A stretch of DNA of 64,000 bases from Candidatus Omnitrophota bacterium (GTDB lineage: Bacteria > Omnitrophota > Omnitrophia > Omnitrophales > Aquincolibacteriaceae), in the NCBI GenBank assembly GCA_030698625.1, contig JAUYMS010000035.1, positions 73,950-137,949 on the forward strand, in the 5' to 3' direction. Positions 2 to 42,400 of the stretch are shown here, in pieces (within the stretch, counting starts at the first letter, position 1; each line of letters opens with the position of its first letter). The notes under the pieces are model-generated. The model did no database searches and was not told the DNA's origin. It saw only the letters and a program-made list of their open reading frames with translations. A program made the translations under genes and the position numbers.

Positions 2-3000
2 GAATGGATGCGTTTCAAGAAAAGTTATGACCAGGGAAAACTCTTGCTTATCGATTATCTCAAACGAAGCCAAGCCTTTGTCGATACAGCGGCCTATTCG
101 AATATTTCCCTACTCCTTGAGGCCGAACACTCAGAGGATGCGGCTCTTCACGAGCGCGCCAAAGCCATGGACGGAAAAACTTTCTTTGCGGAAATAGAGG
201 CCATGGAGCGGGATCTTGCGCGCTGTTACCTTGCGACTACGCGGGACAGAAATATCTTTAATTATTACCGGGTGTTGAGTCTCCTCAAACGTCTGAGTGC
301 GATTGAAGTCAGTGCCGAGGAATATCAGGCCGTCGCTTCGAGGCTGGCACATCTGAAAACGCGTAAGCTGGCCCGATTTATCGTCGGCGAAACCGGGGAG
401 ACCATTGCGTTGTCTAAGGAGTGGGAGAAGAATATCAGAAACGCCGTAAACTTCTATGAGCTGGCAGGTCGCCGTGACGACGCAATTGAGAAGTCGCTCG
501 CGAAATACCTGCGCCAGGACGAAGAGAAAGCGGCTGTCCTCGTATTCGGAGGTTTTCATAAGGGCCGTATCATTGAGATACTCCACCGCAGGGGTTTTTC
601 CTACCACGTCGTGGTTCCGAAGATTACGGGTGTCAGTTCACGGCATCAGGAGCAATACCGGAAACTGATGAGCCGGGGATACGACCGCTTTGAGATTCCC
701 GCGCGCGTGGCGAAGGCCGCCCGGCCGGCCAGTGATATCTCCGTAGTAACCGTCGACCCCCGTCAAGAACCTGCATTTCGCGCCGAGTTGCGTGTGCTGG
801 GGTCTATCGTGAAAAGCCTGCAGCGGCGCGGACAGAAGGCCGCACCGTCTGAGATAACGCTCCAACTTAAGAGCCGATCCGAGCTCCGGTCTCCCGACAG
901 AGATTCTAGATTTAAAGGCGTCAACGAAGGGTATTCTGCGGTTGTGATGCAGGTCTCCGAACCCGTTCGCAGCCGCATACTGCAATTTGGGAAAAAGATT
1001 CCGGGTGAGGATCTCTTCTTTCAGGAGTATGAAACCGATCTCGCGCGCGTCAAAGAGCCGCACATAACATTGCAGTACCGCATCGAGACGAACGATCCCT
1101 CGGAACTCGCGAGGGTGGTTAAAAGTTTTGGCCCGATTCGCGTGCGGCTCGGGAAAACCGGAATTTTTGAACGGCCCGATGCAGGTTACGACGTGGTCTT
1201 TCTTCAGGCCGAAGGGGAGAGATTGCATGACTTACACAACCTCATCGCGAACGACCTGGATCATGACAGCCCCTTTTTAGAATTCGCTCCCCATATCACC
1301 TTGGCTTATGTGAAGAAAGGCCTCGGGGTGAAGTACGACAGTATCAGTGAGCTGGAAGGTATGACCTTTGAGATTGATACGGTGAGCTTTGTGCAGGGGA
1401 ACGGTGACCAAACGGAGATTCGCCTGGCAGAGGAGAGCCCTGAGCCGTTTGCGCGTCCGGCCGAGGAGAAAGCGTCGGCAGCGATCACCAAGGCCAGAGG
1501 AATGCAAAGGGCCGTCGGTTCGGTTCAAATGCTCGACTTTGCCATTGCCGATGAAAAAATCACCACAATGCCGATTCCTCTTCAACCCAGGTTCGGAACG
1601 CGGGCATGGTTCGAATCTGCGGCAGGTCTGGTCCGCGAACTTGCCATCGGGCTATTCGTGATTACGGTATTTACGGCCCTGAACTTTTTTGTATACCTGC
1701 CCTGGAGCGCACCCCTTGTGGCGGCATCTCCGCTCATGTTCTTTCCAACGGCAATGCTTTTCGCCGTAGTGACTACCTATTTGGGAGGCTTTCTGGCCAA
1801 ACGATTCAAAACTTATTTCTCGCTCTCTAAGTATTTCCAGCCGGATCAGACCCTGCGCGAACGGATCTGGAACAACATCCGCGAAACGGTAATTCCTGAG
1901 AAAAAATTTGTCCGCATTATTCTTCAGACCTTTCTCTTCGGGCTGCCGGTCTACGGGTTTTTTCTATTTGGCTGGTATATTCCACACATCATACCGGGCG
2001 CCGGTCTTCTGCCGGCCTTGGGCCGTGCCGCATTCGTTCAGTTGCTGCTCGCACCCTTCTTTATCGATCCCGTTAACTATGTGGTTGGCCGCATATTTTT
2101 CGAGAAGAAGAGTTTTGCCGAATCTGTCAGGCAGGCCAGGAAGAATCTGCCGACGTTTACGCTCTCGGCTATTGTCGTTTGGTTAGGACCTACGATCTTT
2201 GCCCTTTACAACCCCAATGCGATCACCACATTCGTGTGGCTTGGAATCGCGCAGCTTATTTGGACAGTGATCTCACTTCTCCTGCTGGAAAAGGAGAAGC
2301 TCAATCTGAACACCAAGGTGAAGCATTTTCTGAAGCGCCGTTTCGGTATCGTGACGGATAAGAACAGCGACGGAGTTATCGGAAGAGTCGCTTGGTTATT
2401 CGATTCATTTTATAACCTGCCGTGGTTCGGCTTGTACATTCTGATTCTCGTTTATACGTTCTATTTTTCGACTTTTATCCATTTGGCAACTGTGATTTAT
2501 CTGACCCTGCAGAACCCCATCATTATCAGTGATGGTGTCGTAATCGGAATGCTGCTCGGGGGAATCGCATTCTATCCCTTTATTTATCCCGTATACCGGC
2601 GATTGATTCGGTATGAGGAAAGAATCATGGACAGGACACCGCTTAAGGGTATTTTTCAGCGGGGAGGTCCGCCTGCCTCGATCGGTGAATTTAATCGCAT
2701 GTCGAACGAACTTCATGAGCAGGCACGGATCCGGGCCGAATTTTTTGACGTTTTTGACGGCGCTGAGGCGAGAAGCCGGCTGACTGATGCTGAAAAGGGG
2801 GATCACCTAAGGCTTTCAGAGACACAGTGGAAACAAGAGAATCGCGGCTTTTCCTATCTGGAATCAACATGGTTGTTCAACAAGTACCGTGAAATATCGG
2901 CATTCGAATCTGCCGTCAGATTCTATGAAGAGTCGCCTAACCAAGTGTTTCGAAATAGTGACTCTGTTCGTGCGGGTTATGTGCTTGCGCTTCATCAAAT

Positions 3001-6000
3001 GGGCCTGAGTCAGATTTTTAATTCCCGTACGTCTTTGAGTGGAAGGCCTTACCTGGATCGGGCGTCGAGCGCGGCGCGAACTGCCATCAACGAACGTATT
3101 GAGGATGCAATGGCGGTCCCCCTCGTAGACGGCTATACCGTTTCGGACCTCGTCAAAGAGCTGGGGCGGCCTTATGACGCATGGCGACAACCGCAGGTGC
3201 GGCTGCTGGTTGATGCGTTCAATCGGAGATTTAATGGTGAAGACCTGTTCGCGGAACCCGAATTTCGCTTCAAAGACGGCCGATTGAAGACAGGAGCTCT
3301 GTTGAAGCGAGTGGAAGAAAAGGCGGATTTCGTCGAAGAGGCGATTTCAACGATCAACAAGAGGATTGTGGAATCCGTTTATCCCGATCTTTATCTGGGC
3401 CTTGCGGCGGCACATAAGAATAAATATATACTGACAAGTCTCCTGACAACGGAATTGAAGAAGCCCAAGCGAGACAGAAAAGTCGAAATGTTGGACAGAT
3501 GGTTTCTGCTCTATGACACCTATTTCCCGGAGGGACTGTTGAAACAGCAACAATTTCGAATGGAGAAGAACAATCTGAGCCCGTTGCGGGTGGTGGCGGA
3601 GTATGAACGGAATGCGCAGTTCGCGTCAGCTCTCATTGATGAGGTCGAGGCCAATGGTCACCGGGCCCTCTACCTCGCCTACGAGATCTACATGGAAGTT
3701 TTCAAACAGGATCTTCTCAATTACCACGCGGGAATGAATGTCGTGCGCGCTTTAATTTCCTTCGGGGGACCGGCGGATTTAATTCAGGCGAAAGAATTGG
3801 CGCTGATTGTGCGTACCTCCGCCGAACACGGGGGGCCGAAATCCTTCTGGCGAAATGCAACGCTCTTGGAGATGGCTCTGGTACAGAAAGATACGCGCCG
3901 GGTAACGCAGAGTTTCTCTCGGCTTTTGGAAGTCGTTCAGAACGATTCCGCCTATGAATCATTTCGCCGTCATCTCGAGCGATGGCGGGACTTGACTGTC
4001 AGCCGAGGAGAATCACACGACGAATTGGACTGGGTGATCAAACATCTGTCTTCGGTCGCCGCGAGCCGCTATAAAAGCGAGCCGGTTGAGACGTTAAGCA
4101 CGGCGGCGTCTGAGGATGGCCGGGCCCAGGCGATGGTACAGCTTATGAGGTCCAGAGAGCGGGCACGTGAGGATTCGGTCACTGAGACGATCGACAGGCG
4201 CGTGATACGCCTCGACCAGTACCGAACGGCGAATCTTCTTCCCAACAATATTGCTCAGGGAGGATTTATTGTCGACATCTTGGGCAGTACGGCAGACTCT
4301 GATCTGATTCAGGGCATCGTGGAGTACGACGTGCCGGGTGGCGTCTCGCTGAAGGATATCAAAGATCCGGAAGAAGCGGATCAATGGATCAACCATTTTG
4401 TCGATCGTGTTTTTGGCTTGGTGCAGTGGGATGACGCGCGGCAGGCCTATGTCAGGGTCTATGAGGACCTGGATCAAGTACAGCATCGCGAACTCGATGC
4501 CGTGATGACCGGATTTCGCGAAACGGTTGCGGCGCGCGTTTCGGAGAGAGGGACGACCAACGCCCTGGCAGCCGCGGCCATGGGCTTCGGTGATGCCCGT
4601 TACGTAAATTTCACGAAGCAGCGCCTAAGCGCCGCCAAGGCTCGATACGATCTTAAACGGGATTTGAGAAAGGCTCTTGATGAATTGCTTGTGAACAAGA
4701 ATGCCGATGCCTTCCGGGAGGCGCTAGTGGAAGCCGAGTCGAACAACGGCAGGGAATTCGCGATCGCCGAGATGGTCATCAAAGCGCCTATTGCGATGGG
4801 AACGGCAGGAACGGGCAAGCGTCTTATGGTTGAGGGTTCCGAAGGACGGCATCCGTTACTCGTCCGGGAGCTCAATGAGATTGAAGAAGAACCCATCGCG
4901 ATCGAGATCGAACGAGACAAAAGCGGTGTCATTCAGGCCGTCATCCTGAGAAACGGATGGTATCGGGATTTATACCGGTTCGGCTACCAGAGAATCGAAG
5001 GGGAAGACCTGGAAAACCTGAGATCCGGCGAAGGTTTGCGCGTTCGCGATGCCGTATCTGCCTATGACGGTGATGGCAAACTTGTTCCCAGTGATGTCTA
5101 TCTGAATTTTGCGCCCTATGCCGCGGACCGCCACCAGCGCACGCTGAGCTATACGGCGGATGGCTTTTATGTCGGGGGTCATCTTGTCGACAAGCCGTCG
5201 GTGGAGTATTTCTTTGACGACGATGCGCGTGCCGCGTTCAACAGCACCATGAGACGCTATTTGCAAACCGTCGGCGAAAGACACCAAAGCTCTGGAGTTA
5301 CTGAACGCTCCGAATTGAGAGTTCAGGATGAGATTCAAGTTGTGCGGTCCGAGCTGCGCGACGGCAAGGGGATAAATGTCTTGCCCGAACTTATCGCAGT
5401 GTCGTGGCTGTTGGTCATGGGAAATCCCGTCCAATCGGCGGCAGTGCTTCTCCCCGCATTCATATTCGCGGCCGCGATTTCACGGTTGGCTTTATTCGCG
5501 GCTATCGGAATCCACGGCTTGGGACATTCGTTGAGCTCGGTGCTCACGGACGGAAAATGGACGTCTGAAAAAGTGAATTACGGGGATGTCCTCAGAGGCC
5601 TCCTGCCTTTTCAGGAAATCCCAGCGCCAAGCCGGAGCGTTCGGGAGACAACACCGCAGGCCGATGCGGGTATTGAAGGTCCGGTACGGACTCGCGTTAA
5701 GGCGGCAAGCGGGATTTTCTTCAACGCGATTGCCGTTTATCTGCTTATTGCTTTCGGTCTGCCGGCCTCGGCGATCGCATTCAGTGGCTTCAGTTTACTC
5801 GGCGCGGATCTAGCCCTTTACGCATTGGCCGCGCTGGCGTCATGGAATGTCGTCTATGCGATCACATCGCTTGCGGATGTGCGCTCTATCCTGAGCGGGA
5901 AGGCGACTGTCTTTTGCTGCGGTGTCGTCGGAGCCATCGGATATGACGAAACGGACCTAATTAAAAAGATTCAGGCAATGATGTTCTTTACCCTTCTGCG

Positions 6001-9000
6001 GGGTCAGCAGGCCTTCGGTATATCTCAATTATTCCTGTATTCGGAAAGGGCATTTAGGCGCCTTGCCGTGGAAGGCGAGGGGATTCGAGACAGCGTCAGG
6101 GTTTTAGACGCTTATCAACCTGAAGAGAGCGACCGCATTGGTCCCAAGGGGATTAAGGTGCTCAATACCAAGCGTGGAAATCTGATACGCAGATTCGTGA
6201 GACGGTGGCTATTCTGGGGCAAGATATGGGAATTCGCAAACTTTAAACCCTTAAAGGGGTGGTTCTCGTTTATCGCGCATTCGCGGTACGCTACCGTAGG
6301 TCCGACTTCTAAGCTGGAAACCCATCCTCATTCCTGGATGGACCCGCGGCGTGTTGTTCAGTGGCGTGCTCAGGGCGATAAGCTGGTGGTCTCGGAGAGA
6401 ATTTTGAGTAATCGCATCGTACACAACGGCGACTTTAACGAGTTCAAGACTCTGTTTTATAAGTTCATGGGCAAGGAGAGGACGATCCCGGAGCTCAAGG
6501 CATGGCTCGAGCGCGTACTCAACACACCCAACGCAACGACGGGCGATTCGCCGAAGATTGCCGGCTTGATGGATTTTCTAATAACGCAAGGCATGTGGTA
6601 TTCCTCGGTACGATTTGCCTACCACACGGTTATCCCTGAATCATTCAATGATGTTATGGACGGTGAAATCCCCTCCGAGGACGATTTGACCTTTTGGGCC
6701 GCGGTTTTTGAAGATGCGTTTATCGAGACGCGAGACGAACTGCTTCGGGCCGATGCCCGATCCCTGGCGGACTATGACTCAGACGCAGTGGAAGCCTTGA
6801 TTCGGACAGTTACCGAGAGGATAAATCGAGATCCGGCGGTCTCCTTTCGCTTTCTGGGTCTTCCCTATGAGAAGCGAGAAAGATTCGCGCGGGCCTCGAT
6901 CTATGCCTTTTTGGAAAATGATTCCTACCGAGCTGCGCAGACGCTGTTAACCAACGCCTCGGATAACAGCACTTTTGGCTTGGCCATTCAGTCGACCACA
7001 GATGTGGACAAAAAACGCACGGTTCTCGTGACAAAGGCTCAGCCCATGATGATCAGCCGCGATAAGTCCAACGGGAATATCTATCATGCTTCCGAAGCCG
7101 ACGCCGCGAAAGCCAAAGAGCTGATCGATCGGGACAATCTCGAACTGTTTCGCATGGACCAGACAGGCGAAGCCGTGGCGATAGGCTTGGAGCAGAAGAA
7201 TGCGTATTCGCTGGCGACGAGGGCAGAAGTGCCCCTGGCGGTCGTCGAGCGCCGATGGGTTAGCGCCGAGGATAATCCGTATGTTTCAACCCCGCCGCCG
7301 GCGGAAGCAGTGAAACGGGGAGATGTGGACCCCATGACCCGGGATGTGCTGGGTATTCCCGCGGAACGGAAACGCGTTCGCGACGCTTGGGAGGGTACGA
7401 GTCTGGATAGAAATAATTTGAATCTTGAGGCGGCTGATAATTTCGCAGAAGACATGATTAAGAAGATCGCGGAGCAGCAGGCGTTGACAGAGACGACCGG
7501 AAAGGCCTATCGCGCGGCAACGCCTGACCTCTTGGTGGTAGGCCTGGAAAAAAGCGAATGGGTCGGCGAAAATTTTGTGAACAATTTCTCAAAAATTGCG
7601 CCTTTACCTATGCGAACGATCAGTTCAAATACCTTCCTGCGGGAGATCGTCAAAACGCATCAAACGCTCGTAGGTGAAAACACGACCGTTCTTTTTATCA
7701 GCGAATCGGGTCAGTCATTCCCGACCTATCAGGCCCTCGTAAAGGCGGAAGAATTGCGCAGAAAAGGCGCTATCGCCGAAACCTTTATTCTGACCCATCA
7801 ATTCGATACCGAAATGGCGGATGCCATCGGACAGGCATTCCATCGTAGTGCCCCTTTTACCGGCCGTATCTTTACGACAGGCTCCTGGCCTAGCCATGCC
7901 GAAGCCGCATCAAGGGCGGTGGTCGCACTCGATCAAACCCTGACGCAATTATGGCTTCACATCGCATCACGCATGGTAGAAAACGACATTCCGATTAGCG
8001 GCGCGTTACAACAATCCAGGCAATTACTCAGGGATCTTAAGAAAGACAATGGAGATCTTATTGCCGGAAGTCAGGCTGTGGTGGAGTCGGAGGATCTAAA
8101 GAGCGGCGCCTTGAAAACCGCATGGGAAATCAAGGCGACGGCGTGGACAACTATCTTTATGAAAGCCGCTATTTTTAGTACCGTCTTAGTCGGTTTTCCC
8201 GCAGTGACCGCCTCGATCTTGGGAATCTTAGGTTATTCCTTTGTGCAAGCCCTCGCAATCACGGAGGGGATCGCTCTCTCGGCCGTACTGCTCCGCCTTT
8301 TCGACACGTTCCTGTACACGTTTGGCGGAGGTATTATCATCGTCGGTTTGCGTGTCCTAGGCAAATGGCGGGGGAAGTCAAAAGGACAGATTGCCTCACG
8401 CGTCGGTATGTGGACCTTGGCGATCATCAGTGCCAGGAATCACCGCTTTCTCGGCCGGTTCTTGCGTGAAGGTTTTTCGCTTTCGCCGGGACTATTTACG
8501 ATCAACCCGGAAGCGGAAGATCCCGAAACAGCACTTCATGTCCTGCAGCCTCATCGAGGATGGCTCATTTTGTATGACCTCCCGAATGGGGAACTCAGTG
8601 AGGGGATGGCCTTGGAACAGCGCGCCGTGCTCAAACTGGCGCCTTCCTTCGAGGGCAATAGGAGTTTGGGCGCAACCCCGCAGAGCACCCTCCTGACAAC
8701 CGACGAGAAGTTAGCGGCCAAGTCAGGGCGACCCACGATTGTTCCTCACCGCTCCGAACTACGGCAGGAAGACGGTGCAGATCTTCGAGCCGACTTGATC
8801 GAAGGTCTCTTTGATTCTGCGATCCGCCTGGACGCCGGATACAGTTTTCTCAGCACGGTCATCGGCGAGACCGCGACATTGAAAATCCCGCTGTGGGGCA
8901 ACCTAAGGCTCTGGTCTTGGTGGCGGAAGCGCGGCGGCAAACGAACCGATCAAGCAGCACAGCCAGTCGGCCGAGGTGAGATTGATCCTGTCACGCAGGA

Positions 9001-12000
9001 TGTTCTGAGGATTCCGTCCGAACGCGGGCGTATCCTGAACGCCTGGACGATAGACTCGGCAGTGAACACTAAGAACCTCGCCCATGCGGACCGTTTCGCG
9101 GAAGCCATGAAAACGAAGGCTAGAGAATACCGTGAATTGGAGGAGACGACAGGGAGAAGGTTTGTGCTGGAAACACCGGATCTGTTGATCATTGGCCATG
9201 ACCAGGGGTTGTGGGCCGGTGAACAGTTCGGCGATAACCTCGAAAGAATCGCGCCCATCCATATTCGAACGGTAAGTGAAAATGTTTTCCGGCAGGAGAC
9301 GTCCAAGGCAAACCAAAAACTTGTAGGCAAGAATACAACCATCCTGTTTATCGACGAATCAGAATTAACGGAGTCGACCGATGACGTTGCCATGGGCGCC
9401 GGGAATTTTATCCTGACGCACCGTTTTGACGGCGAAACGCTCGGCGGGGCACGCGTCCTGACCACGAATGCACAACCGAGCCGTGCCGATATCCCGTCGA
9501 GGACAGTCGTCGCGCTGCAACAGACATTGACGCAGTTATGGTTACATACCGCAAACGCGATGGCGGCGGACGGCAGTGCTACTATGGGTTCGCCGGAGTC
9601 ATCAGCCGAGCTCCTTGAGTTGCTATACCATAAAAATTCTGAGACGGTCGCCGCAAGCGCCGCCGCGATTAACTCGGTTGAACTTCGAGAGGATGCGAGC
9701 CGGTGGGCGTGGGAAGTGAGGACGCGCGCTACGGTAGCCATCTTCATGAAAGCATTGGTTGCCGTAACGGTGTTTGCCGGTTTTCCGGTCTTCGCGGGCC
9801 TTGCGTCGCATGGGTTCGGCGTCCCTTTCCTGACAACGCTCGCAGTCGCAGAGGGGGTTGCGCTTCTTGTCTATCTTTTTAGACTCCTGGATACGCTGTT
9901 TTACAGTTTTGGCGGCGGGGTTATTGTTCTCATCTTGCGTGTCATCGCCAAACTAAGCGGTCATTCAACCGGGCAGATCATGTCTCGCATGGGTGCAAGA
10001 ACGATCGCGATCAGCGATCCGGTCAACCATCGCTTGCTTGGAAATTTTCTCCACAAGGGAGTTTCGCGTGCGCATGCCGTATTCGGCATCAATCGAGAAA
10101 ACGCGGATCCGGATGAAGCTCAGCACGGATGGCATCCCACGACGGCATGGCATGTCCTTCTCGGTGCGCCCGACGGAAGACGGAGTGAGGCCCTGGAGCT
10201 TGAGGAAGGTGTGATTACGGAGCTTGCCGATGCGTTTAGTCAGAATGCATACTTCGGAGCCAGACCGCAGATTACGACTCTGACCACGAATCCAAATTTG
10301 GCGGAAAGCACAACGGGTACGGTCATCGTGACGCGCGACGCCGCACCGGCATCAGATGCAGAAACCGACCTTTCCGCAGACTTGAAAGAGGGGTTGTTTG
10401 ATTCTTCGCGACGATTGGATGCGGGGTTTAGTTATTTGAGTACGCTTATGCGTTCTGTGGCGACGGTGAAGCTCCCGGTTCTAGGAGAGGTGAGGTTATG
10501 GGCTTGGTGGGGAACGCAGGCCGGAACAAAGACCGTGACCACGCCTTCGCCGTTCGAAGGCCCCATTCTGGAAGCAACGCGGACCCCGAAATTAGAAGAG
10601 ATTCCGGCCGAAAAGGAAGTGGCGCCGCTTACACTGCAGGCCGGGGGAGGCACCGTAACATCGGCCAGGTTCCAAATAAGAGAAACTCCTGTCTCTTATT
10701 ATGGCATTGCGTGGAAATTCTTTACCCGGGACGTCTTCGGCCACTTAACATTTCTCGTTCTAGCGAGCATCTTTTCCCTTTCGCTTCTCATGCACCCGTG
10801 GGCCATCATTCAATATGCGATCTTCTTCGTATCAATCCTCATCTTGGATCTGTGGAGCTACTGGCACACCACCTGGAAGAAAAATCCCAATCTGGGAGGC
10901 GCCATCACATTCATCATCTCCAGCATCTTTTTTCAGGGTCTGATGTACGTGATCGACCCGAATCATATCCTGGTGACATTTATCCCGGGCCTCTATCTGC
11001 ACCGGTACATCCTCATCCCCTTCGTAGTCCCTCTTCTATTGGCCTATGTGGGCCGGTTCCTCCTAAGACAGCGGGCCGATACCCCGGGGCGGGTTAAAAA
11101 GTACGTCACCCAAGAAATTCCAAGAGGGCGCTTTATCACGAGGCGCTTTATTGGCGATGAATATCCGAAGGCGCATCCGGCGCTGTTCCCTGACGGAACG
11201 GTGAGTCCGGCCTTCGAGCGGAACACGACAGCCGCCTATAATCTATTGATGGCTGCAGGACACAGGCATGAAGGGATTCAGTTCATCTTTGAGCGTATTC
11301 TACAGGGGATAGAGGAAGCGCAAGGCTTAGAAGGGCTTCAGAAGCTGGATCTTTCGTTCGACTTGGATAAAATCTTTCTGATCTACGCCGATACGCAAAC
11401 TTTATCAGGCGAGGCCGTCGTCAAAAAATATCTGCTTGGATTTAACCCAAGCCTGGCTGCTTTACAGAAGGATGAAACGGCCATGGATGAAATTCTCGCC
11501 AAATATGAAAACCTTACCAATGAGTTTACGGGCATTTTGGATTCCTCGGCTATATTGCAGCAGCTTCACCGGTTAGCCTCCCAAAACTTGGATGCCCTCA
11601 CCAGCAAAGAGGACATCCTGGCACTTTTGGCGAACTTTCTCGGCGGGCTTCGCCCAAGCAATGTGATGCTGCTAGAGCGAAGGCTTCAACACCTTGAAGA
11701 AGTCTTAAAGATTGTGGACGAAGAGCAGCGGCATGGCCGCTCCGAGCTGCGAAGCACGACGAGGCGTGAGTTTCTGAAGCAGTTAGCGGCGACGCCGATT
11801 GCTCTTCAGATGGCCGGTTGGGAACCGGCGGCGCGAACGGTGCAACCGATGAACTGGCTCGTGAAACATCTCGGCTCCAAACTCGCGCCGGAACTAACTC
11901 GTGCTTGGAAGAGAAGCCAGGACAGGGTCAACGTTCCCACTCTGCTGACGAAGGTGCTCTCGGTATCCTTCCGGGTCTTGCGGGAGCAGAGCGGTGTCTG

Positions 12001-13234
12001 GGCGGAGATCGTCCAAGACTCCGGCGAGTGGCCTGCGATTGACGCCGCCATTCGTACCGCTCACGCCGATGCCCGGAAGAAAATCGAAGGCGGGCATAGT
12101 GACTGGTCCTCTTTCGTTAATGACTATGAGCAGACCGACGGATTCCGAGGAGTCAAACACTGGTTGGAATTTAAGCAGAGGCCGCAAGATGTACAGGCAT
12201 GGGTAGAAGACGTCTTTGTCGACCACGAAATATCGTCCGCAATATCCGGCCGACTCACTCGATGGATTCGCCGCTTCGGACCCGATGCGTACCGCATCTT
12301 TAAAGACTTGTCCAATCTGCCATCGCGGGATTTGCGGGAGTTGCATGATGCCGTGAGTGAGAGGAAAGCGATTCCCCGGTACGAGGATATTCAGAAAGCG
12401 ATCCCGAAGCTGAGGCAGTTGAGGGAGAATCAGAAAAGCCTTTGGGACGATATCCACTGGCTTGAATCTCACGCGGTGTGGCTGCGAGGACACGGTGAAG
12501 TGAATAATATCGATGTCGCATTTCCGCCCGAGTGGCTTAAGGAAATGCAAGAGAAGAGGCAGGCCGCGGAGCGTGTGAACCAGGAAATCGAGGAAATTAA
12601 GCGGAATGCATTCAAAGAACGGTCCGAGCTGAGATCAACCCTACCGCCCTTCCGGGACGCTGATGTGTCTCATGCTCTCCAGACTTTAGATGTCAGTGCG
12701 CGGGGGACTCTCACGATGCCGGTGGCGACCGTGGCCGCGCTTGTGCGTTCGGAACTGCGCGGCGGTACAGAAGCGGAAGCCGCGCGGCAGATCTTAGACG
12801 AACTTTATTTGGTGGCTTATCGTTGGAAGAAAGTTCGTATTTACTTCTACGGCAATACCGGAAACAATCACTCCCGGACAGAATACTATCTGTCACAATT
12901 GAGCCGGCTGTCGAATGTGGCTGTTACCGAAGCCGGTGTCGTCGAGACCCTCTCGCTGCGCGGGGAAGATGATCACGTCTCAGTGGATATCTCTGAGGCG
13001 GGGATACGGCCGACGAGCGGTTTGATGCCGAGCCGGCTGAAAGAGCACTTGAAGTTCGTGAAGTTACGGCAGCGGCCGGGCTTAATCCTCATGTCACTCT
13101 GGGTTACGCTGACCCAAGGCTCAGCCATCGGCCGGGGCGTCCACGAAGCAGACGGCTTCTTAGAGCCGCAGACGGCTCTGGAACAGCAATTTCAGGCCTA
13201 CCTAAATGAGCAGGTCGTTGAGTGGTCGGCGTAA
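2..13234 (+). CDS. Giant multidomain RSELR protein 1 (5' end outside window)
   Basis: The frame is open from base 2, so the ATG at 8 is internal; the first visible residues align with the middle of the N-terminal domain of the giant gene at 52618. Residues below count from that ATG. Order: C-terminal half of the TraB/Tiki-like domain (1-255, GGFH with H184); RSELR; 2H phosphoesterase (300-485, HITL at H352 and H429); about eight membrane segments (535-875) with some Mpv17/PMP22 resemblance; a long helical region; RSELR twice (1767, 1780); degenerate M50-like membrane domain (HGLGH 1836-1840); GlmS-like glutamine amidotransferase (Cys1971); two tandem SIS-plus-membrane units; another membrane block (3555-3690); RSELR followed by a Tat signal (R3919-R3920); then two more RSELR copies and an unrecognised C-terminus. 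The mix of cytosolic, membrane and exported modules is odd for one chain. Reading frame is certain; overall function is unknown. Confidence 0.9.
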   Translation, partial: EWMRFKKSYDQGKLLLIDYLKRSQAFVDTAAYSNISLLLEAEHSEDAALHERAKAMDGKTFFAEIEAMERDLARCYLATTRDRNIFNYYRVLSLLKRLSAIEVSAEEYQAVASRLAHLKTRKLARFIVGETGETIALSKEWEKNIRNAVNFYELAGRRDDAIEKSLAKYLRQDEEKAAVLVFGGFHKGRIIEILHRRGFSYHVVVPKITGVSSRHQEQYRKLMSRGYDRFEIPARVAKAARPASDISVVTVDPRQEPAFRAELRVLGSIVKSLQRRGQKAAPSEITLQLKSRSELRSPDRDSRFKGVNEGYSAVVMQVSEPVRSRILQFGKKIPGEDLFFQEYETDLARVKEPHITLQYRIETNDPSELARVVKSFGPIRVRLGKTGIFERPDAGYDVVFLQAEGERLHDLHNLIANDLDHDSPFLEFAPHITLAYVKKGLGVKYDSISELEGMTFEIDTVSFVQGNGDQTEIRLAEESPEPFARPAEEKASAAITKARGMQRAVGSVQMLDFAIADEKITTMPIPLQPRFGTRAWFESAAGLVRELAIGLFVITVFTALNFFVYLPWSAPLVAASPLMFFPTAMLFAVVTTYLGGFLAKRFKTYFSLSKYFQPDQTLRERIWNNIRETVIPEKKFVRIILQTFLFGLPVYGFFLFGWYIPHIIPGAGLLPALGRAAFVQLLLAPFFIDPVNYVVGRIFFEKKSFAESVRQARKNLPTFTLSAIVVWLGPTIFALYNPNAITTFVWLGIAQLIWTVISLLLLEKEKLNLNTKVKHFLKRRFGIVTDKNSDGVIGRVAWLFDSFYNLPWFGLYILILVYTFYFSTFIHLATVIYLTLQNPIIISDGVVIGMLLGGIAFYPFIYPVYRRLIRYEERIMDRTPLKGIFQRGGPPASIGEFNRMSNELHEQARIRAEFFDVFDGAEARSRLTDAEKGDHLRLSETQWKQENRGFSYLESTWLFNKYREISAFESAVRFYEESPNQVFRNSDSVRAGYVLALHQMGLSQIFNSRTSLSGRPYLDRASSAARTAINERIEDAMAVPLVDGYTVSDLVKELGRPYDAWRQPQVRLLVDAFNRRFNGEDLFAEPEFRFKDGRLKTGALLKRVEEKADFVEEAISTINKRIVESVYPDLYLGLAAAHKNKYILTSLLTTELKKPKRDRKVEMLDRWFLLYDTYFPEGLLKQQQFRMEKNNLSPLRVVAEYERNAQFASALIDEVEANGHRALYLAYEIYMEVFKQDLLNYHAGMNVVRALISFGGPADLIQAKELALIVRTSAEHGGPKSFWRNATLLEMALVQKDTRRVTQSFSRLLEVVQNDSAYESFRRHLERWRDLTVSRGESHDELDWVIKHLSSVAASRYKSEPVETLSTAASEDGRAQAMVQLMRSRERAREDSVTETIDRRVIRLDQYRTANLLPNNIAQGGFIVDILGSTADSDLIQGIVEYDVPGGVSLKDIKDPEEADQWINHFVDRVFGLVQWDDARQAYVRVYEDLDQVQHRELDAVMTGFRETVAARVSERGTTNALAAAAMGFGDARYVNFTKQRLSAAKARYDLKRDLRKALDELLVNKNADAFREALVEAESNNGREFAIAEMVIKAPIAMGTAGTGKRLMVEGSEGRHPLLVRELNEIEEEPIAIEIERDKSGVIQAVILRNGWYRDLYRFGYQRIEGEDLENLRSGEGLRVRDAVSAYDGDGKLVPSDVYLNFAPYAADRHQRTLSYTADGFYVGGHLVDKPSVEYFFDDDARAAFNSTMRRYLQTVGERHQSSGVTERSELRVQDEIQVVRSELRDGKGINVLPELIAVSWLLVMGNPVQSAAVLLPAFIFAAAISRLALFAAIGIHGLGHSLSSVLTDGKWTSEKVNYGDVLRGLLPFQEIPAPSRSVRETTPQADAGIEGPVRTRVKAASGIFFNAIAVYLLIAFGLPASAIAFSGFSLLGADLALYALAALASWNVVYAITSLADVRSILSGKATVFCCGVVGAIGYDETDLIKKIQAMMFFTLLRGQQAFGISQLFLYSERAFRRLAVEGEGIRDSVRVLDAYQPEESDRIGPKGIKVLNTKRGNLIRRFVRRWLFWGKIWEFANFKPLKGWFSFIAHSRYATVGPTSKLETHPHSWMDPRRVVQWRAQGDKLVVSERILSNRIVHNGDFNEFKTLFYKFMGKERTIPELKAWLERVLNTPNATTGDSPKIAGLMDFLITQGMWYSSVRFAYHTVIPESFNDVMDGEIPSEDDLTFWAAVFEDAFIETRDELLRADARSLADYDSDAVEALIRTVTERINRDPAVSFRFLGLPYEKRERFARASIYAFLENDSYRAAQTLLTNASDNSTFGLAIQSTTDVDKKRTVLVTKAQPMMISRDKSNGNIYHASEADAAKAKELIDRDNLELFRMDQTGEAVAIGLEQKNAYSLATRAEVPLAVVERRWVSAEDNPYVSTPPPAEAVKRGDVDPMTRDVLGIPAERKRVRDAWEGTSLDRNNLNLEAADNFAEDMIKKIAEQQALTETTGKAYRAATPDLLVVGLEKSEWVGENFVNNFSKIAPLPMRTISSNTFLREIVKTHQTLVGENTTVLFISESGQSFPTYQALVKAEELRRKGAIAETFILTHQFDTEMADAIGQAFHRSAPFTGRIFTTGSWPSHAEAASRAVVALDQTLTQLWLHIASRMVENDIPISGALQQSRQLLRDLKKDNGDLIAGSQAVVESEDLKSGALKTAWEIKATAWTTIFMKAAIFSTVLVGFPAVTASILGILGYSFVQALAITEGIALSAVLLRLFDTFLYTFGGGIIIVGLRVLGKWRGKSKGQIASRVGMWTLAIISARNHRFLGRFLREGFSLSPGLFTINPEAEDPETALHVLQPHRGWLILYDLPNGELSEGMALEQRAVLKLAPSFEGNRSLGATPQSTLLTTDEKLAAKSGRPTIVPHRSELRQEDGADLRADLIEGLFDSAIRLDAGYSFLSTVIGETATLKIPLWGNLRLWSWWRKRGGKRTDQAAQPVGRGEIDPVTQDVLRIPSERGRILNAWTIDSAVNTKNLAHADRFAEAMKTKAREYRELEETTGRRFVLETPDLLIIGHDQGLWAGEQFGDNLERIAPIHIRTVSENVFRQETSKANQKLVGKNTTILFIDESELTESTDDVAMGAGNFILTHRFDGETLGGARVLTTNAQPSRADIPSRTVVALQQTLTQLWLHTANAMAADGSATMGSPESSAELLELLYHKNSETVAASAAAINSVELREDASRWAWEVRTRATVAIFMKALVAVTVFAGFPVFAGLASHGFGVPFLTTLAVAEGVALLVYLFRLLDTLFYSFGGGVIVLILRVIAKLSGHSTGQIMSRMGARTIAISDPVNHRLLGNFLHKGVSRAHAVFGINRENADPDEAQHGWHPTTAWHVLLGAPDGRRSEALELEEGVITELADAFSQNAYFGARPQITTLTTNPNLAESTTGTVIVTRDAAPASDAETDLSADLKEGLFDSSRRLDAGFSYLSTLMRSVATVKLPVLGEVRLWAWWGTQAGTKTVTTPSPFEGPILEATRTPKLEEIPAEKEVAPLTLQAGGGTVTSARFQIRETPVSYYGIAWKFFTRDVFGHLTFLVLASIFSLSLLMHPWAIIQYAIFFVSILILDLWSYWHTTWKKNPNLGGAITFIISSIFFQGLMYVIDPNHILVTFIPGLYLHRYILIPFVVPLLLAYVGRFLLRQRADTPGRVKKYVTQEIPRGRFITRRFIGDEYPKAHPALFPDGTVSPAFERNTTAAYNLLMAAGHRHEGIQFIFERILQGIEEAQGLEGLQKLDLSFDLDKIFLIYADTQTLSGEAVVKKYLLGFNPSLAALQKDETAMDEILAKYENLTNEFTGILDSSAILQQLHRLASQNLDALTSKEDILALLANFLGGLRPSNVMLLERRLQHLEEVLKIVDEEQRHGRSELRSTTRREFLKQLAATPIALQMAGWEPAARTVQPMNWLVKHLGSKLAPELTRAWKRSQDRVNVPTLLTKVLSVSFRVLREQSGVWAEIVQDSGEWPAIDAAIRTAHADARKKIEGGHSDWSSFVNDYEQTDGFRGVKHWLEFKQRPQDVQAWVEDVFVDHEISSAISGRLTRWIRRFGPDAYRIFKDLSNLPSRDLRELHDAVSERKAIPRYEDIQKAIPKLRQLRENQKSLWDDIHWLESHAVWLRGHGEVNNIDVAFPPEWLKEMQEKRQAAERVNQEIEEIKRNAFKERSELRSTLPPFRDADVSHALQTLDVSARGTLTMPVATVAALVRSELRGGTEAEAARQILDELYLVAYRWKKVRIYFYGNTGNNHSRTEYYLSQLSRLSNVAVTEAGVVETLSLRGEDDHVSVDISEAGIRPTSGLMPSRLKEHLKFVKLRQRPGLILMSLWVTLTQGSAIGRGVHEADGFLEPQTALEQQFQAYLNEQVVEWSA
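905..1440 (+). other. 2H phosphoesterase (LigT-like) module in giant protein 1
   Basis: This module starts directly after the first RSELR. It carries the two HxTx signatures of the 2H phosphoesterase superfamily, HITLQ at H352 and HITLAY at H429, about 77 residues apart, as in LigT, CPDase and 2'-5' RNA ligase-like proteins. Those enzymes hydrolyse 2',3'- or 1'',2''-cyclic phosphates. The substrate cannot be read from sequence. Both catalytic His and Thr residues are present, so an active enzyme is plausible. Confidence 0.75.
5360..5905 (+). other. Degenerate M50 (site-2 protease-like) membrane module
   Basis: After the RSELR at 5345 come hydrophobic segments, then HGLGH (1836-1840) where M50 intramembrane metalloproteases have HExxH. 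The general-base Glu is Gly. A later membrane segment has an Asn pattern (FFNAIAVYLL) and a third contains NVVYAITSLADV, roughly where M50 has its N...LDG motif. It is probably a catalytically dead relative. The module ends about 25 residues before the amidotransferase Cys. Assignment rests on motif spacing only. Confidence 0.5.
5912..7318 (+). other. GlmS-type class II glutamine amidotransferase module
   Basis: The key GlmS glutaminase motifs appear in order: CGVVGAIG with nucleophile Cys1971, RGQQAFG (from 1998; GlmS RGYDSAG), HSRYATVGP...HPH (from 2091; GlmS HTRWATHG...HPH), HNGDFNE (from 2139; GlmS HNGIIEN) and a C-terminal part ending in DPMTRDVLGIP, matching the HYMQKEIYEQP joint. The family releases ammonia from glutamine and feeds it to a SIS-domain isomerase. 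In GlmS the Cys is residue 1 and its free amino group is the catalytic base. Here it is deeply internal, so activity would need cleavage just before it. There is a large insertion between the RGQQ and HSRY motifs. Confidence 0.8.
7319..8926 (+). repeat. SIS-plus-membrane unit, copy 1
   Basis: First of two tandem units offset by about 1,656 bases (552 codons). It opens with the GlmS-like joint DPMTRDVLGIP, then a SIS fold with a good phosphosugar-binding loop FISESGQS (around residues 2563-2570; GlmS has TLSQSGET) and a helix like GlmS ASTKAFTTQL. Three or four membrane segments follow, then a soluble tail. An RSELR at 8750 sits inside the tail of this copy. Confidence 0.75.
8975..10514 (+). 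repeat. SIS-plus-membrane unit, copy 2 (degenerate)
   Basis: Second tandem unit, collinear with copy 1 from DPVTQDVLRIP through the membrane segments to the Trp-rich end. The sugar-binding loop has decayed to FIDESELTES and part of the SIS domain is deleted. The position matching the RSELR in copy 1 reads TRDAAPASD, so the motif is absent here. It probably keeps a structural role only. Confidence 0.7.
11738..11850 (+). other. RSELR followed by internal Tat-type signal peptide
   Basis: RSELR (11738-11752) is followed after three residues by TRREFLK, a match to the twin-arginine consensus S/T-RR-x-F-L-K (Arg3919-Arg3920), then a moderately hydrophobic stretch (LAATPIALQMAG) as in Tat leaders. 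It lies about 3,900 residues inside the protein. Confidence 0.7.
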
Positions 13235-36418: not shown

Positions 36419-39400
36419 ATGCGGACTATGGCTAAGCCCTATCTCTATCGTGCGATCGCCGTACTCGTTGCGACGACGTTTTTAGTGTCGGATCTTACGC
36501 TGCCCGCGTACGCGCAGGAGACGATCGGGGCGCCTTCTTTGGAGACAATCCCCGCCGATCTTTCATCCATTGACGTCCCTGTCGATTTAGGCACGGTTGA
36601 AGATTCCTTTCAGGGGAATACCGGTAAAGTTGTTGTGCTCATACAGGATGCCCACTCGATTCCCGATGCGCAGCGAAGTGTCCGGGAACTTATTAACCAT
36701 TTTCAATCACGGTACGGCGTTTCGTTGGTCGCTGTCGAAGGCGCTGCCTCCCGGCTCGATGCCCAATTATTTAAGAGTTTCCCCGACCAGCAGTTGCTCA
36801 AGGAAGTCATTTCCGAATACCACGCTGAAGGAGAAATTGCCGCAGGTACAGAAGCGGCGCTGTTTAACGAAACAGCGGCTGTTTATCACGGAATCGAAGA
36901 CTGGGATCTCTACGAAGAGGGACTTGCGCATTACCTCCGCACGACCGAACTGCAGGCTCAAATTACCGCAAGTCTTGAAACCCGCCGCGAGGTTCTGGAA
37001 GCAGAAAAGGAAAAAGTTTATTCCGAAGAGCTCCTCGGCATCGACCGGATTCTGCAGGGATTTTACGCCAATGACAGCGACTTGCTCGAACTCGTGCAAG
37101 CGCTGGCGCACTACCTGAAACCCGATTCCGATACGGAAGTGGCCCTTCTTTTGGCAAACAGTGAACGCGATCCCGACGGTGCGGTTTCCCTTGAGGATGA
37201 AGTCGAAGACATGGCCTGGCGTATCAAGACGGAATTGGCCGCGCTTGACGCAGCCGGGGACCTCAAGGCCCTCAACCGGAAAAGCCAAACCTTCTTTACC
37301 TCAGAAATCAATGCCGAACAGATGGCCCTTTTTCTCGATGAGATGTCGGCCAAGCACGGGCTGAGTTTTAAAGCCTCGCCGGTGATGCGCCGGCTCATGC
37401 AACGGCATCGCCGCCTGCGCGATCTTAGCGGAAGCCGCTTTTTCGAAGAGCTCAATCGATACATCGGGGATGTCAAAGAATCCGTATTTCGCACGGATGC
37501 CGAACGCGGCTTGGACGGCGAATTCGAAAATTTGAGGTTACTTTTCAAGCTCTCGAAGCTTGAAGTGAGTTTTGATGAGTGGCAGAAGTTGGGTGCGAAT
37601 GATGCCGTTCCTCAGGAACTAAAATCCCTTTTTGAATCGCACCGCGCTTTTTACGAAAACTCCGAGTCTCGTGACGATGCCTTTCTCGGCAATCTCACGA
37701 AGCTCATGAAACACCACGATGCGGCCGTCCTCGTGGCCGGCGGTTTCCATACCGACGGCCTGACCCAAAGATTCCGCCGGCACAATATCTCTTACTTGCT
37801 CCTCGCTCCGCGTATTCCTTCGATTCCGGAAAAATCAAGATACCAAGAGCAAATGCAGGGAGAGGTCAGCTGGAAGGATTATTTCAGGGCCGAGGACGGC
37901 CGTATCAATCTTTACGAGGCCTTCGCACGGGCAACCCGTGACCGACTGTTGGAGCGAACCACGGCAGGTTCTCGCGCAGAAACCCTCAAGCTCTGGCGCG
38001 ATGAAATCATCCGTGATTTGGCCGCGCGCGGTGAGGTTGAGAGAGCGGGCGAACATACGCGGCTGTTGGACGAAGTCAATGAGGCACAGGCAGCCGGGAA
38101 TGAGTGGCAAGAGAAGTGGATGGCCAATATCAACGGTTTTTTCAAAGGCCTGGAGCGCTTGCAGATCAACGGCGAAATGAATCAGGCCAATGTGCTAAAG
38201 CTCCTGCAGCCGGCGAACATGATAGCGGCCCGCACCGGCCCGGCCCAGTTGAGTTTGGGCAATCCGGGCCTTGCGATTTTTGCCGCGCCGCTTACCGCGA
38301 TCGATCGATCCGAGTTAAGAAATGAAGATGGGATGCCGGAGCCGATGCAAAGAGTCCTCGCGGACGCGGCAGGCAAGATAAACCGGACTGCCGCCATCGA
38401 CGACGAAGTGCTGAAGAAATACAGCAGGTCGCGTGAGGGTATGCGCATGAGCATTTTCAGGCAGGCGCTGGCGGATCTCGTGACTGCGGGTTACTTCGAG
38501 GGTACGGAGTTTCCTTTTCTTCTCTCCGGCCTCGTCAATAATACCCAAAAGGAATTCCAATTTTTTTCCAAACGGATTCGGGACAGTGCATCCCTGCGGG
38601 AAGTTATGACCCGGCTCTGGCAAATACACCGCAAATACAGTCGTTTTGTCGATGACGTGAACGAACGCATTCTGGCTCAGGCCCCGATCGGAGAAGATGG
38701 AAAAGTTCTGGGGCTTGTGATGCAGGTCATCGAGGAGCAAAATGACGAACAAACGAACCCGCTCTATTCCCGGCCCGACGGATTCATCATTCTCAACCTG
38801 GCGGCTCTCATCGACAGCGCGCGTGATGTGTACGGAAACGAATCCGTCGCCCACGAGGCCGGGCACGGCATGGCCCATTTGATCGATAATGTACCGTCAA
38901 ACCTTCCGGAGCACTTGGAGCTCGCAGCCAATTGGGCTGCGGCGCAATTCGCGGGAGTCGAGGCGATGGCCGCTTATGCGAACCAGGTCTTGGACGCGCA
39001 CATTCGTTCGAGCGGCGCAGATCGCGTTTATCCCTATTTTGCTACGCCGATTCTGGTCTTTGCCGAAGAGGCAGGCATTCGGCTGGAACGAGAGGATGTG
39101 GCCAGGAAGAATGCGGACAAGAGCCGTATCGAGGCCTACCGTCAATACTACCGGAGCCTCGCGTGGAAAGCGAGCCGTTCGGGTTCCGAGCGCTCCGAAC
39201 TTAGGGCCGGTACGAGCTTTTGGAAGTCAAAACGTTTATGGGTCAGCGCTGTCTCAGCCGGACTTTTGGCATTTGCACTATGGAGGTCAATACCGCCGGG
39301 AGAGGCGCCGCAGCTTGAAGCTCCTCAGGCAGAACCCCGCCAAGAGCAGGTCGTTGCAGAAGACCCGCCGGTCTCCGTAGCGCCGGCAGTGGAACCCGCT

Positions 39401-42400
39401 CCGCAGGAAGCAACCAAAGAGGAACCCGTTGTTGAACTCCCTGCGCCCGTCGCGGTGGTCCCGGCCGAAGAAGCTCCGGCGCCCGGCGAATTGACCGATG
39501 ATGAAAAGAGGGTCATCGAAATCGCGCGCCGCCACGGAATTGAAATTACTCCCGAAGAATATCGTGAAATGATTCAAATTCTAAAGGCGAGCCAATCGCG
39601 TGACATCGATTACCGCGTTAGCCACGAAGCGGCATTGCCTGCGGCACAGCACTTGATTCCCGGGGCGGCTCAGATATTTGGTGAAGGCGAAGGATTGTCC
39701 CTTACGGGGGATGAGGCGTTAAGCGCCGAGGATTGGGTGGCGAAAGCCATTGTGCCCTGGATGATGATTTATGGCGTGGACTACCACGAAGATTCCTGGC
39801 AGCAACGGGAGTTTATGGATTCTCTGCGCTATGCCCAGCCGATTACTCAAAAGGCACTCACCGATATGGTCAATGCGGGCCAGATCACTAAAGATGACGA
39901 GCTTCCGGATCTTTGGCGCGGGCTCGGCTTTTTGAATGTGCTCGACGACGATGAATGGGTTGTGCTAGACAATGAGTGGAGTAAGGTCCCGCGAGTGAAA
40001 TTCAAGAGCTATATGGGTTTTCTCATGATGACGGCTCTTTTGGAATACCAGCATCGCGTGGTTGAGCAATGGGGATACCCCGAGCTCTTTCCGCGCGGCC
40101 CCGAACACTGGTATCTGCCGCAGAATTTTTATAGCGAACTAGTCTTTTCGTTGAATAATGAAAACTTCGACCTCATGAAAGCGCGGATATTCGAGCGCAG
40201 GATCTCGGAACAATTCACCCGTATCTATTTCATGAATATGCATCGCGATATATGGCACGACCTCTATGTGCCCGCTGAAATCAGGCTGCGGGGTCAGTTG
40301 CGGGAAGCTTACCCTCACCTCGCCCTCCGGATGGCCGGCGACCCGGAGAGCCAATGGCGTGTTAACTCGCTGTCGGACAAAGAGGTCTCCCGTTCTATTT
40401 TCTTTCAGGTCTTATCCGAGCGTTCATTTTGGCCGGAAGGTGCAACCACGATTCGTGAAGTCATTGAGAGTGATATCTTTCAGCGGACTATCGACCGTCT
40501 CCTAACCCTGCGCAGCGAAGGTCTCATCGCCGATTACTATGCTCCGGGCAATCCGCCCGAGATGCGCCAGATACTGGCGAATCTTCAGGCGGGCCGATAC
40601 GCCGTCCTTGTGGAGTCCGGCCTGACAGGGAAAATCAGGGATATGGATAGAATTGAGGCTGACTACATTCTCGGAATCGATTTTGCGAACACCTTGCCGC
40701 TTGATGCTATTCGCCTCCGGGCGACAGCCGAGAGAAACAATAGTATTACCGAACCTGATGATTATGATGTTCGTCAGCGGCTGTTACGTGATCTTGCCGT
40801 GGAGACGGCCTTTGGCCTGGATTTCGGCGCGCACTACACGGGCGCGCGTGAGATGGCGGAAAACGAATTCGATATGGAAGCCCTCCGGGCTCTTTATGAC
40901 CAGCGGACCGACATCGAGCCCGAACTCGAGATGTTCTGGGGCCGCGACCTCAACCGCAACGGCCGTCATGATTCCGGGGTAATCAACGGCAGTAACGGGG
41001 CGCGCAGGCGCCTCGAAATTCCCATGAAGTATTGGGAACTGATCCTCATTCTTTCTTCTGTTCCTGAGGGAGAAGACCTGAATCTCCGTCCGGATATTCA
41101 ACGGCATGTCCGCGAACTCTTTTCGGCTATGACGCATCACCCGATGTGGGAACAGGAATTCAACTTTGATGATGAACGGACCGGTTCGGTTCAGGTCGGT
41201 GCCGTCATCGGAACGACGACAAACCTTTTAATTGACGGGTGGGAAGACCCCGCGGCGAGACTGCAGGCGCTCGCGACGATCTTCCGGGATCCGGCGACGC
41301 ATCCCGTGGTTGATAGCGTAGGTGATCCGGTGATGGTGGACGGTCAGGCGGTTGAGCGTACTCAGCGTGAGACGATCATACGCTATGGCGTGAGAATGCA
41401 TCACATGTGGCTCAATGAAGCCCGGCCCTCAGAGGCCCAGATGCAGGAAATTATTGCGAGTTTCGAGACAGACCCCCTGGCGATTCGAAAGTACGGCCCC
41501 GAAGTCATCGCTATGGCCGAACACTTTGCCAAGTCGACAACGGACTGGGAAACGACTCAGAGAGATCAGGAAAGAGTGACCGTTCGCCTGGAGTCCGGAG
41601 TGCAGGCGCGTTCGGAACTTAGGTCAATGGAAGAGATCTATGCCCGGACTTTGGAGGAATACGCCGCGGGCATTTACAAACTTGAAGACCGTATCTTTGA
41701 ATTGCGCGCCGACGAGGGAGTGGTCGACAGCGGAATTTCAGACCTGATTAATCTGCACATGGGACCGGATGTATTTCGGGATCCGTTAAAGCTCTTGATT
41801 CTGGATCACGCCCTGTGGCGTTTAGCCGAACCCGGCGCAATTCGCCCTGAAGTGATTATGCAGGCCATTACCATGAACGACAGCCCTGCTGACCAGTTGA
41901 AAAGGGCATTGCTCATCGATGTGCTCGGAAGATTTATGGGATTGAATCCCAAATATGACGGTTTTTTCAAAGGGGTGCCCGACATGATGCCGGAAAATGA
42001 GCCGGCTATGGCAGCCGCTCGGCGAGCCATTGAAAGGCAGGGAGGAGAGAAATTGATCGGAGAGCCGCCGAGCCGTAAAGATGACGAAGATTTTATGAAG
42101 GCGATCGCGGCACAGCATGTACCGATTCTGCCGAGAGCGACTCTCGAAAACGCACTCCTGCCCGTAACGGGCCCTGAAATCCTGGGCTTCATCTTTATAA
42201 ACGGGAATGGACAGGATAAAGAGGTCGAGCTTGAAGGCGTTAAGATCTCGACGAAATCCCTGCAAATGAGTAATCCGAGAACTGAGCATATGTTTCAGGT
42301 GCTGCGCCGCAGCGTCGCCGACAGCTCCAAGAACGGAGTGCCCGAGAGTTTTGAGAAGTCGGCACAGGTGCAGGCAATATTTGCGAGGCCCACCACCGAA

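Follow-up and report, generated by a model that had tools for sequence, protein, structure and literature searches.

The stretch of DNA analysed here (termed the window; 64,000 nucleotides from an Omnitrophota genome with a size of 3.5 Mb) encodes what is probably a membrane-tethered, GlmS-like class II amidotransferase that is made as one unit of a polyprotein. Its Cys nucleophile would be freed by a cut before residue 1971, most likely made by the enzyme itself, while release of the unit at RSELR motifs would be a separate step. Class II amidotransferases work through an N-terminal Cys, whose free amino group they use, and in Ntn amidotransferases this free N-terminal Cys is thought to be necessary and is exposed by removal of Met or of a short propeptide. 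The initial annotation had described a GlmS-like glutaminase with an internal Cys at residue 1971, and this description stands: the frame is open, the motifs are found at the positions that it gave and the Cys is residue ~2180 in native numbering. Beyond that account, the internal Cys is, by sequence comparison, common to a whole family present in several Omnitrophota families, and the unit appears also to have an upstream M50-like membrane module, downstream SIS parts and an RSELR-joined polyprotein setting.

The forward-strand frame 2–13234 runs without any interruption. Translation of the native protein most likely begins at an ATG located 620 nt ahead of the window. This ATG is preceded by a Shine-Dalgarno-like AAGGGG sequence and followed by a Sec-type signal peptide-like sequence, MRRHTRAGRVYLVNKAISLCVAICLAVTQTEAYA; the native protein, counted from and including this likely start, has 4,617 residues, of which the catalytic Cys is approximately the 2180th. 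Residue numbers such as 1971 are counted from the first in-window ATG (nt 8). The ORF and its glutaminase features are as follows.

8–13234, + strand: in-window part of the giant ORF; open frame of 4621 codons, with the likely start codon outside the window (620 nt upstream)
5918–7318, + strand: GlmS-type class II (Ntn) glutaminase domain; a helical insertion follows the Asp123 motif
5918–5923, + strand: Cys1971-Gly1972, the catalytic nucleophile, with the predicted cleavage point before Cys; 20/20 homologues
6278–6301, + strand: HSRYATVG, the GlmS Arg73 motif; H.R invariant
6422–6442, + strand: HNGDFNE, the GlmS Asn98-Gly99 oxyanion hole; QNGD in one homologue
6539–6565, + strand: TGDSPKIAG, whose Asp is the GlmS Asp123 equivalent; Asp invariant

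The four motifs reported earlier as well kept begin at residues 1971 (CGVVGAIG, nt 5918), 1998 (RGQQAFG, nt 5999), 2091 (HSRYATVG, nt 6278) and 2139 (HNGDFNE, nt 6422). The domain has the set of residues that marks class II (Ntn, MEROPS C44) enzymes: a Cys-Gly nucleophile, equivalents of GlmS Arg73, Asn98 and Gly99 (the Arg, Asn and Gly oxyanion residues that the initial annotation had singled out for comparison with GlmS and PurF) and, in addition, the equivalent of Asp123. Comparison of family profiles with the PDB gave GlmS and GFAT as the best matches (E 4.5e-6 and 1.2e-5) and PurF as the next, with no match beyond glutaminase and SIS proteins; in the 1XFF profile alignment, Cys1971 of the window stands opposite Cys1. 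Because the PDB matches are restricted to these proteins, and because the motifs recur in ~20 homologues at 18–28% identity, the motif match is judged not to be due to chance. Pfam does not recognize the glutaminase in the window and is likewise uninformative for the M50-like and N-terminal parts, and AlphaFold gave a pLDDT of 38 both for the mature unit alone and for the glutaminase together with one homologue. Two Cys residues are adjacent in the window (FCCG), as had been pointed out; the second, 1971, is the predicted catalytic residue, because the first is replaced by other residues in homologues.

Searches with protein sequences and profiles turned up relatives in 8/117, 16/384, 11/32 and 2/27 genomes, in sets that overlap. 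The ~20 homologues come from several Omnitrophota families, and the host ORFs of all of them are ~1,060–5,330 aa long. The context of the Cys is readable in 20 cases, window included (L016 and L042 are nearly identical, and the Cys assignment in L017 is less secure), and in every one Cys-Gly occupies an internal position. At ~20% identity, the invariant columns of the family alignments are mostly the equivalents of C1, G2, H71, R73, H97, N98, G99 and D123. Six homologues left out of the alignments (L056–L060 and L062) still have the motif, and one homologue outside the alignments has Gln in place of H97 (QNGD for HNGD). In a remote member (L048) the H.R and HNG motifs are both lost and that part has no matching Cys-Gly, a joint loss as would be expected if the catalytic residues work as a set. 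It is quite improbable that the domain is an inactive structural relative of glutaminases whose internal Cys is never exposed. Such a relative would fit the strong overall divergence of the sequence and the presence of an ordinary GlmS in the same organism, so that glucosamine supply needs no activity here, but no positions of the family are better conserved than the catalytic residues, also when homologues outside the profile are considered, and a catalytic set kept this strictly speaks against a dead enzyme.

Cys1971 follows a TGC codon, and in-frame ATG, GTG and TTG codons are found no closer upstream than 167, 13 and 31 codons; an internal start at the Cys was rejected on these distances. 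Met was found at P1 in none of the 20 contexts. Among ordinary relatives in the same genome, the GlmS (a separate 621-codon frame) and an Asn-synthetase-like protein start with Met-Cys, while residues precede the Cys of the CGVFG motif in a PurF-like protein. Internal translation initiation, giving a separate, shorter protein with the Cys near its N-terminus, can be considered highly improbable: the GTG and TTG codons could serve it, but no clear ribosome-binding sequence is visible by eye ahead of either, and since the Cys has no adjoining start codon in the window and no preceding Met in homologues, such a start would still need propeptide removal. An active enzyme would thus need a cut before Cys1971, because no start codon adjoins this residue and class II enzymes use a free N-terminal Cys. 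The initial annotation had left two outcomes for the internal Cys, cleavage directly before it or loss of activity. Cleavage, as a predicted event, is favoured by the invariant Cys-Gly in ~20 homologues, the retention of the other glutaminase residues and the lack of a start codon adjoining the Cys; what speaks against loss of activity is the invariance of the C1, R73, N98, G99 and D123 equivalents at ~20% identity.

The glutaminase is flanked by membrane and SIS parts, whose membrane topology is predicted from sequence only.

5387–5905, + strand: M50-like transmembrane module, with HGLGH at 5513–5527 in which the metalloprotease Glu is missing; M50 likeness by motif only
7526–8150, + strand: first SIS domain (FISESGQS at 7694–7717)
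8153–8359, + strand: transmembrane hairpin that separates the two SIS-like parts, seen in the sequence and at a similar place in the family alignment
8399–8740, + strand: putative second SIS-like part, strongly diverged, proposed from the family alignment
8765–11737, + strand: stretch after the unit up to the next RSELR, within which lies a paralogous SIS-TM-SIS segment with no glutaminase, 45% identical to the first

Peptidase M50 is recognized by HExxH in a transmembrane helix, and the window has HGLGH instead. The HExxH-like motif is intact in two homologues (HEWTH and HEWVH), lacks the Glu or the first His in several others (HGFGH, HGSGH, NEWGH and NEIGH), and three members (L016, L042 and L019) have no recognisable M50-like module. 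The module has no Pfam match, and its profile has no match in the PDB. Members L042, L019 and L046 of family f31 have internal signal-peptide-like segments (e.g. SGAQA/ATF) and then a LysM/FimV-like stretch upstream of the glutaminase. The glutaminase-then-SIS order is that of GlmS: against the canonical GlmS profile, the glutaminase end and SIS1 align (probability 94%, E 1.3e-7). Pfam matches SIS in 1/12 family members, and SIS2 of the window is too diverged to align with the GlmS isomerase residues (Glu488, His504 and Lys603; SIS2 and C-tail). Features specific to the family are the variable HExxH-like upstream module, the helical insertion after the Asp123 motif and the transmembrane hairpin between the SIS parts. 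By the curated cut-off of TIGR01135 the predicted unit does not pass as a GlmS; a search of the genome (E 1e-5) gave seven matches, among which the standalone GlmS at C38 is present and the window locus is absent.

The short peptide RSELR borders the unit and recurs along the giant ORF.

875–889, + strand: RSELR junction motif, upstream of a 2′-5′ RNA ligase domain (Pfam PF13563, residues 340–467)
5306–5320, + strand: RSELR, first of the pair bounding the unit upstream
5345–5359, + strand: RSELR, second copy of that pair, bordering the glutaminase unit upstream
8750–8764, + strand: RSELR, downstream border of the glutaminase unit
11738–11785, + strand: RSELR, then a Tat-like signal (TTRREFLKQL) 3 aa on

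Giant ORFs of the genome, with 78,725 aa in all, contain exact RSELR 128 times, against 0.24 copies expected and 3 for the best anagram, and have no conservative variant of it. The ORFs counted are 8–13234, 36419–50455 and 52618–63999 of the window, together with those on contigs C2, C4, C7, C9, C11, C13 and C50 of the same genome (G000). The window has 21 copies, all within its three giant ORFs, and the genome has 334 matches to the RSELR coding pattern versus 26 to the reversed control. The motif lies inside none of 20 Pfam domain spans (6.35 expected); a UDP-glucose dehydrogenase domain begins 5 residues past one copy, and another copy directly follows the end of a PPDK_N domain. Tat-like signals begin 2–8 residues after RSELR, mid-ORF, in four of five cases (including 11738–11785 and 43805–43860 of the window; L065 and L067). 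With a short motif at unit borders that is absent inside domains, these ORFs have the mark of polyproteins, and RSELR looks like their junction or cleavage signal. Since cytoplasmic and exported units are mixed in one chain, the chain would have to be cut. A DNA-level repeat was rejected as the source of the motif: the 128 copies comprise 109 distinct 15-mers, which argues for constraint on the peptide. The RSELR serine is encoded by TCN in 125/128 copies, although AGY makes up 40% of serine codons there (L065–L081 and the window), and this bias suggests a shared ancestral DNA sequence for the copies.

Related genera have the motif as RSE[V/L/M/A/T]R. Genomes G001, G004 and G008 have almost purely V at the fourth position and G000, G011 and G015 have L, as expected for a coevolving reading factor; in genus g8 the giant ORFs (G025 and G026; L088–L097) have V, L, M, A or T there, and those of the window's genome always L. 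Enrichment of the motif was confined to the window's order among the genomes tested. Other genomes of the glutaminase family have RSE[LV]R upstream of the unit in four cases and RSE[LVM]R downstream. One 10,304-codon frame of the window's genome (L071–L072, contig C13) encodes an enolase with its C-terminal Pfam domain before the N-terminal one, as well as a NagB-like domain, a PIG-L deacetylase and a 2-hydroxyacid dehydrogenase. In the literature searched, no paper links RSELR or polyproteins to Omnitrophota.

The residues around the Cys bear on how the bond would be cut. Twelve kinds of residue occupy P1 in the 20 contexts (A in 5, R in 4, G in 2, and C, F, L, N, Q, Y, E, K and S in one each); P4 is Gly in 13/20 and P2 is Phe or Tyr in 11/20, giving a consensus of G-x-[FY]-x/C-G, where the slash marks the point before the Cys. 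Because P1′-P2′ (Cys-Gly) is invariant while P1 is free, self-processing is preferred over a site-specific protease, and a lipobox or signal-peptidase site before the Cys was rejected on the variation of P1. That the cut is real but made in trans, by a cellular protease such as the M50-like module, a signal peptidase or an enzyme that reads RSELR, is unlikely. The M50-like module does lie directly upstream in most homologues, twice with an intact HExxH, but it is improbable as a universal protease because its motif is broken in many members, the window among them, and the module is missing in some. Some P1 contexts do resemble signal-peptidase sites or lipoboxes (AIA, LAA and ELA), but P1 is mostly R, K, E, N, Q, Y, F, C, S or L and matches no known signal peptidase. 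RSELR itself was rejected as the Cys-exposing cut, since in none of the cases measured was it closer than 185 aa. Because of this distance, and because the internal Cys is found in families without RSELR too, the step that exposes the Cys is probably a second event, separate from the RSELR step and older.

Under self-processing, the precursor would carry the M50-like transmembrane module ahead of the catalytic Cys. The bond before Cys1971 would then be cut, most likely by the glutaminase domain itself in the manner of PurF, leaving an N-terminal Cys nucleophile; the downstream SIS-TM-SIS part would keep the enzyme at the membrane, and the flanking RSELR motifs would be the site of a separate step that releases the whole unit from its neighbours. 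Cleavage, self-processing, membrane tethering and amidotransferase activity are what we infer for this protein. For class II amidotransferases, autocatalytic removal of the residues preceding the Cys has been described (PMC9140057). A broader proposal, which we put forward tentatively as something close to an even call, is that this order of Omnitrophota may express many genes as cellular polyproteins, whose units (common enzymes, exported proteins and membrane proteins) are linked by RSE-x-R and freed by one dedicated protease, and that in one of them a glutaminase may free its own nucleophile from a membrane module by a cut before an internal Cys.

A whole family in which many hundreds to thousands of residues of a larger protein precede the nucleophile would extend the N-terminal Cys rule of Ntn amidotransferases, and the family offers a direct test case for Ntn self-processing beside a membrane module. 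The RSELR context provides a testable explanation of the giant ORFs of Omnitrophota, which may be bacterial polyproteins and not single giant proteins.

The unit shares with GlmS and GFAT (glutamine:fructose-6-phosphate amidotransferase, EC 2.6.1.16) the glutaminase-SIS order, the Cys1, Arg73, Asn98, Gly99 and Asp123 equivalents and the SxSG phosphosugar motif. It differs in its internal Cys, its upstream membrane module, the helical insertion in the glutaminase, the hairpin between the SIS parts, its very low identity and its place inside a polyprotein, and the GlmS isomerase residues are not recognised in it. As in PurF (amidophosphoribosyltransferase) and GltB, class II enzymes with propeptides, residues before the Cys would need to be removed, and the RGQ-A-G motif resembles that of PurF. 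The propeptides of these known enzymes are ~10–40 residues long, whereas ~2,180 residues, including a membrane module, precede the Cys here; the acceptor domain is SIS in the window and a phosphoribosyltransferase in PurF. The giant ORFs of Omnitrophota described in passages of PMC10066038, where they are read in terms of adhesion and predation, are likewise very long, with transmembrane helices and few recognised domains; the ORFs studied here look instead like strings of enzymes between exact RSELR copies, a motif that the passages on giant ORFs in that paper do not mention. Unlike viral polyproteins, the putative polyproteins described here belong to a cellular bacterial genome, have >100 sites and mix cytoplasmic and Tat-signal units; as in the viral ones, a single frame carries numerous functional units, and a short motif recurs at the borders.
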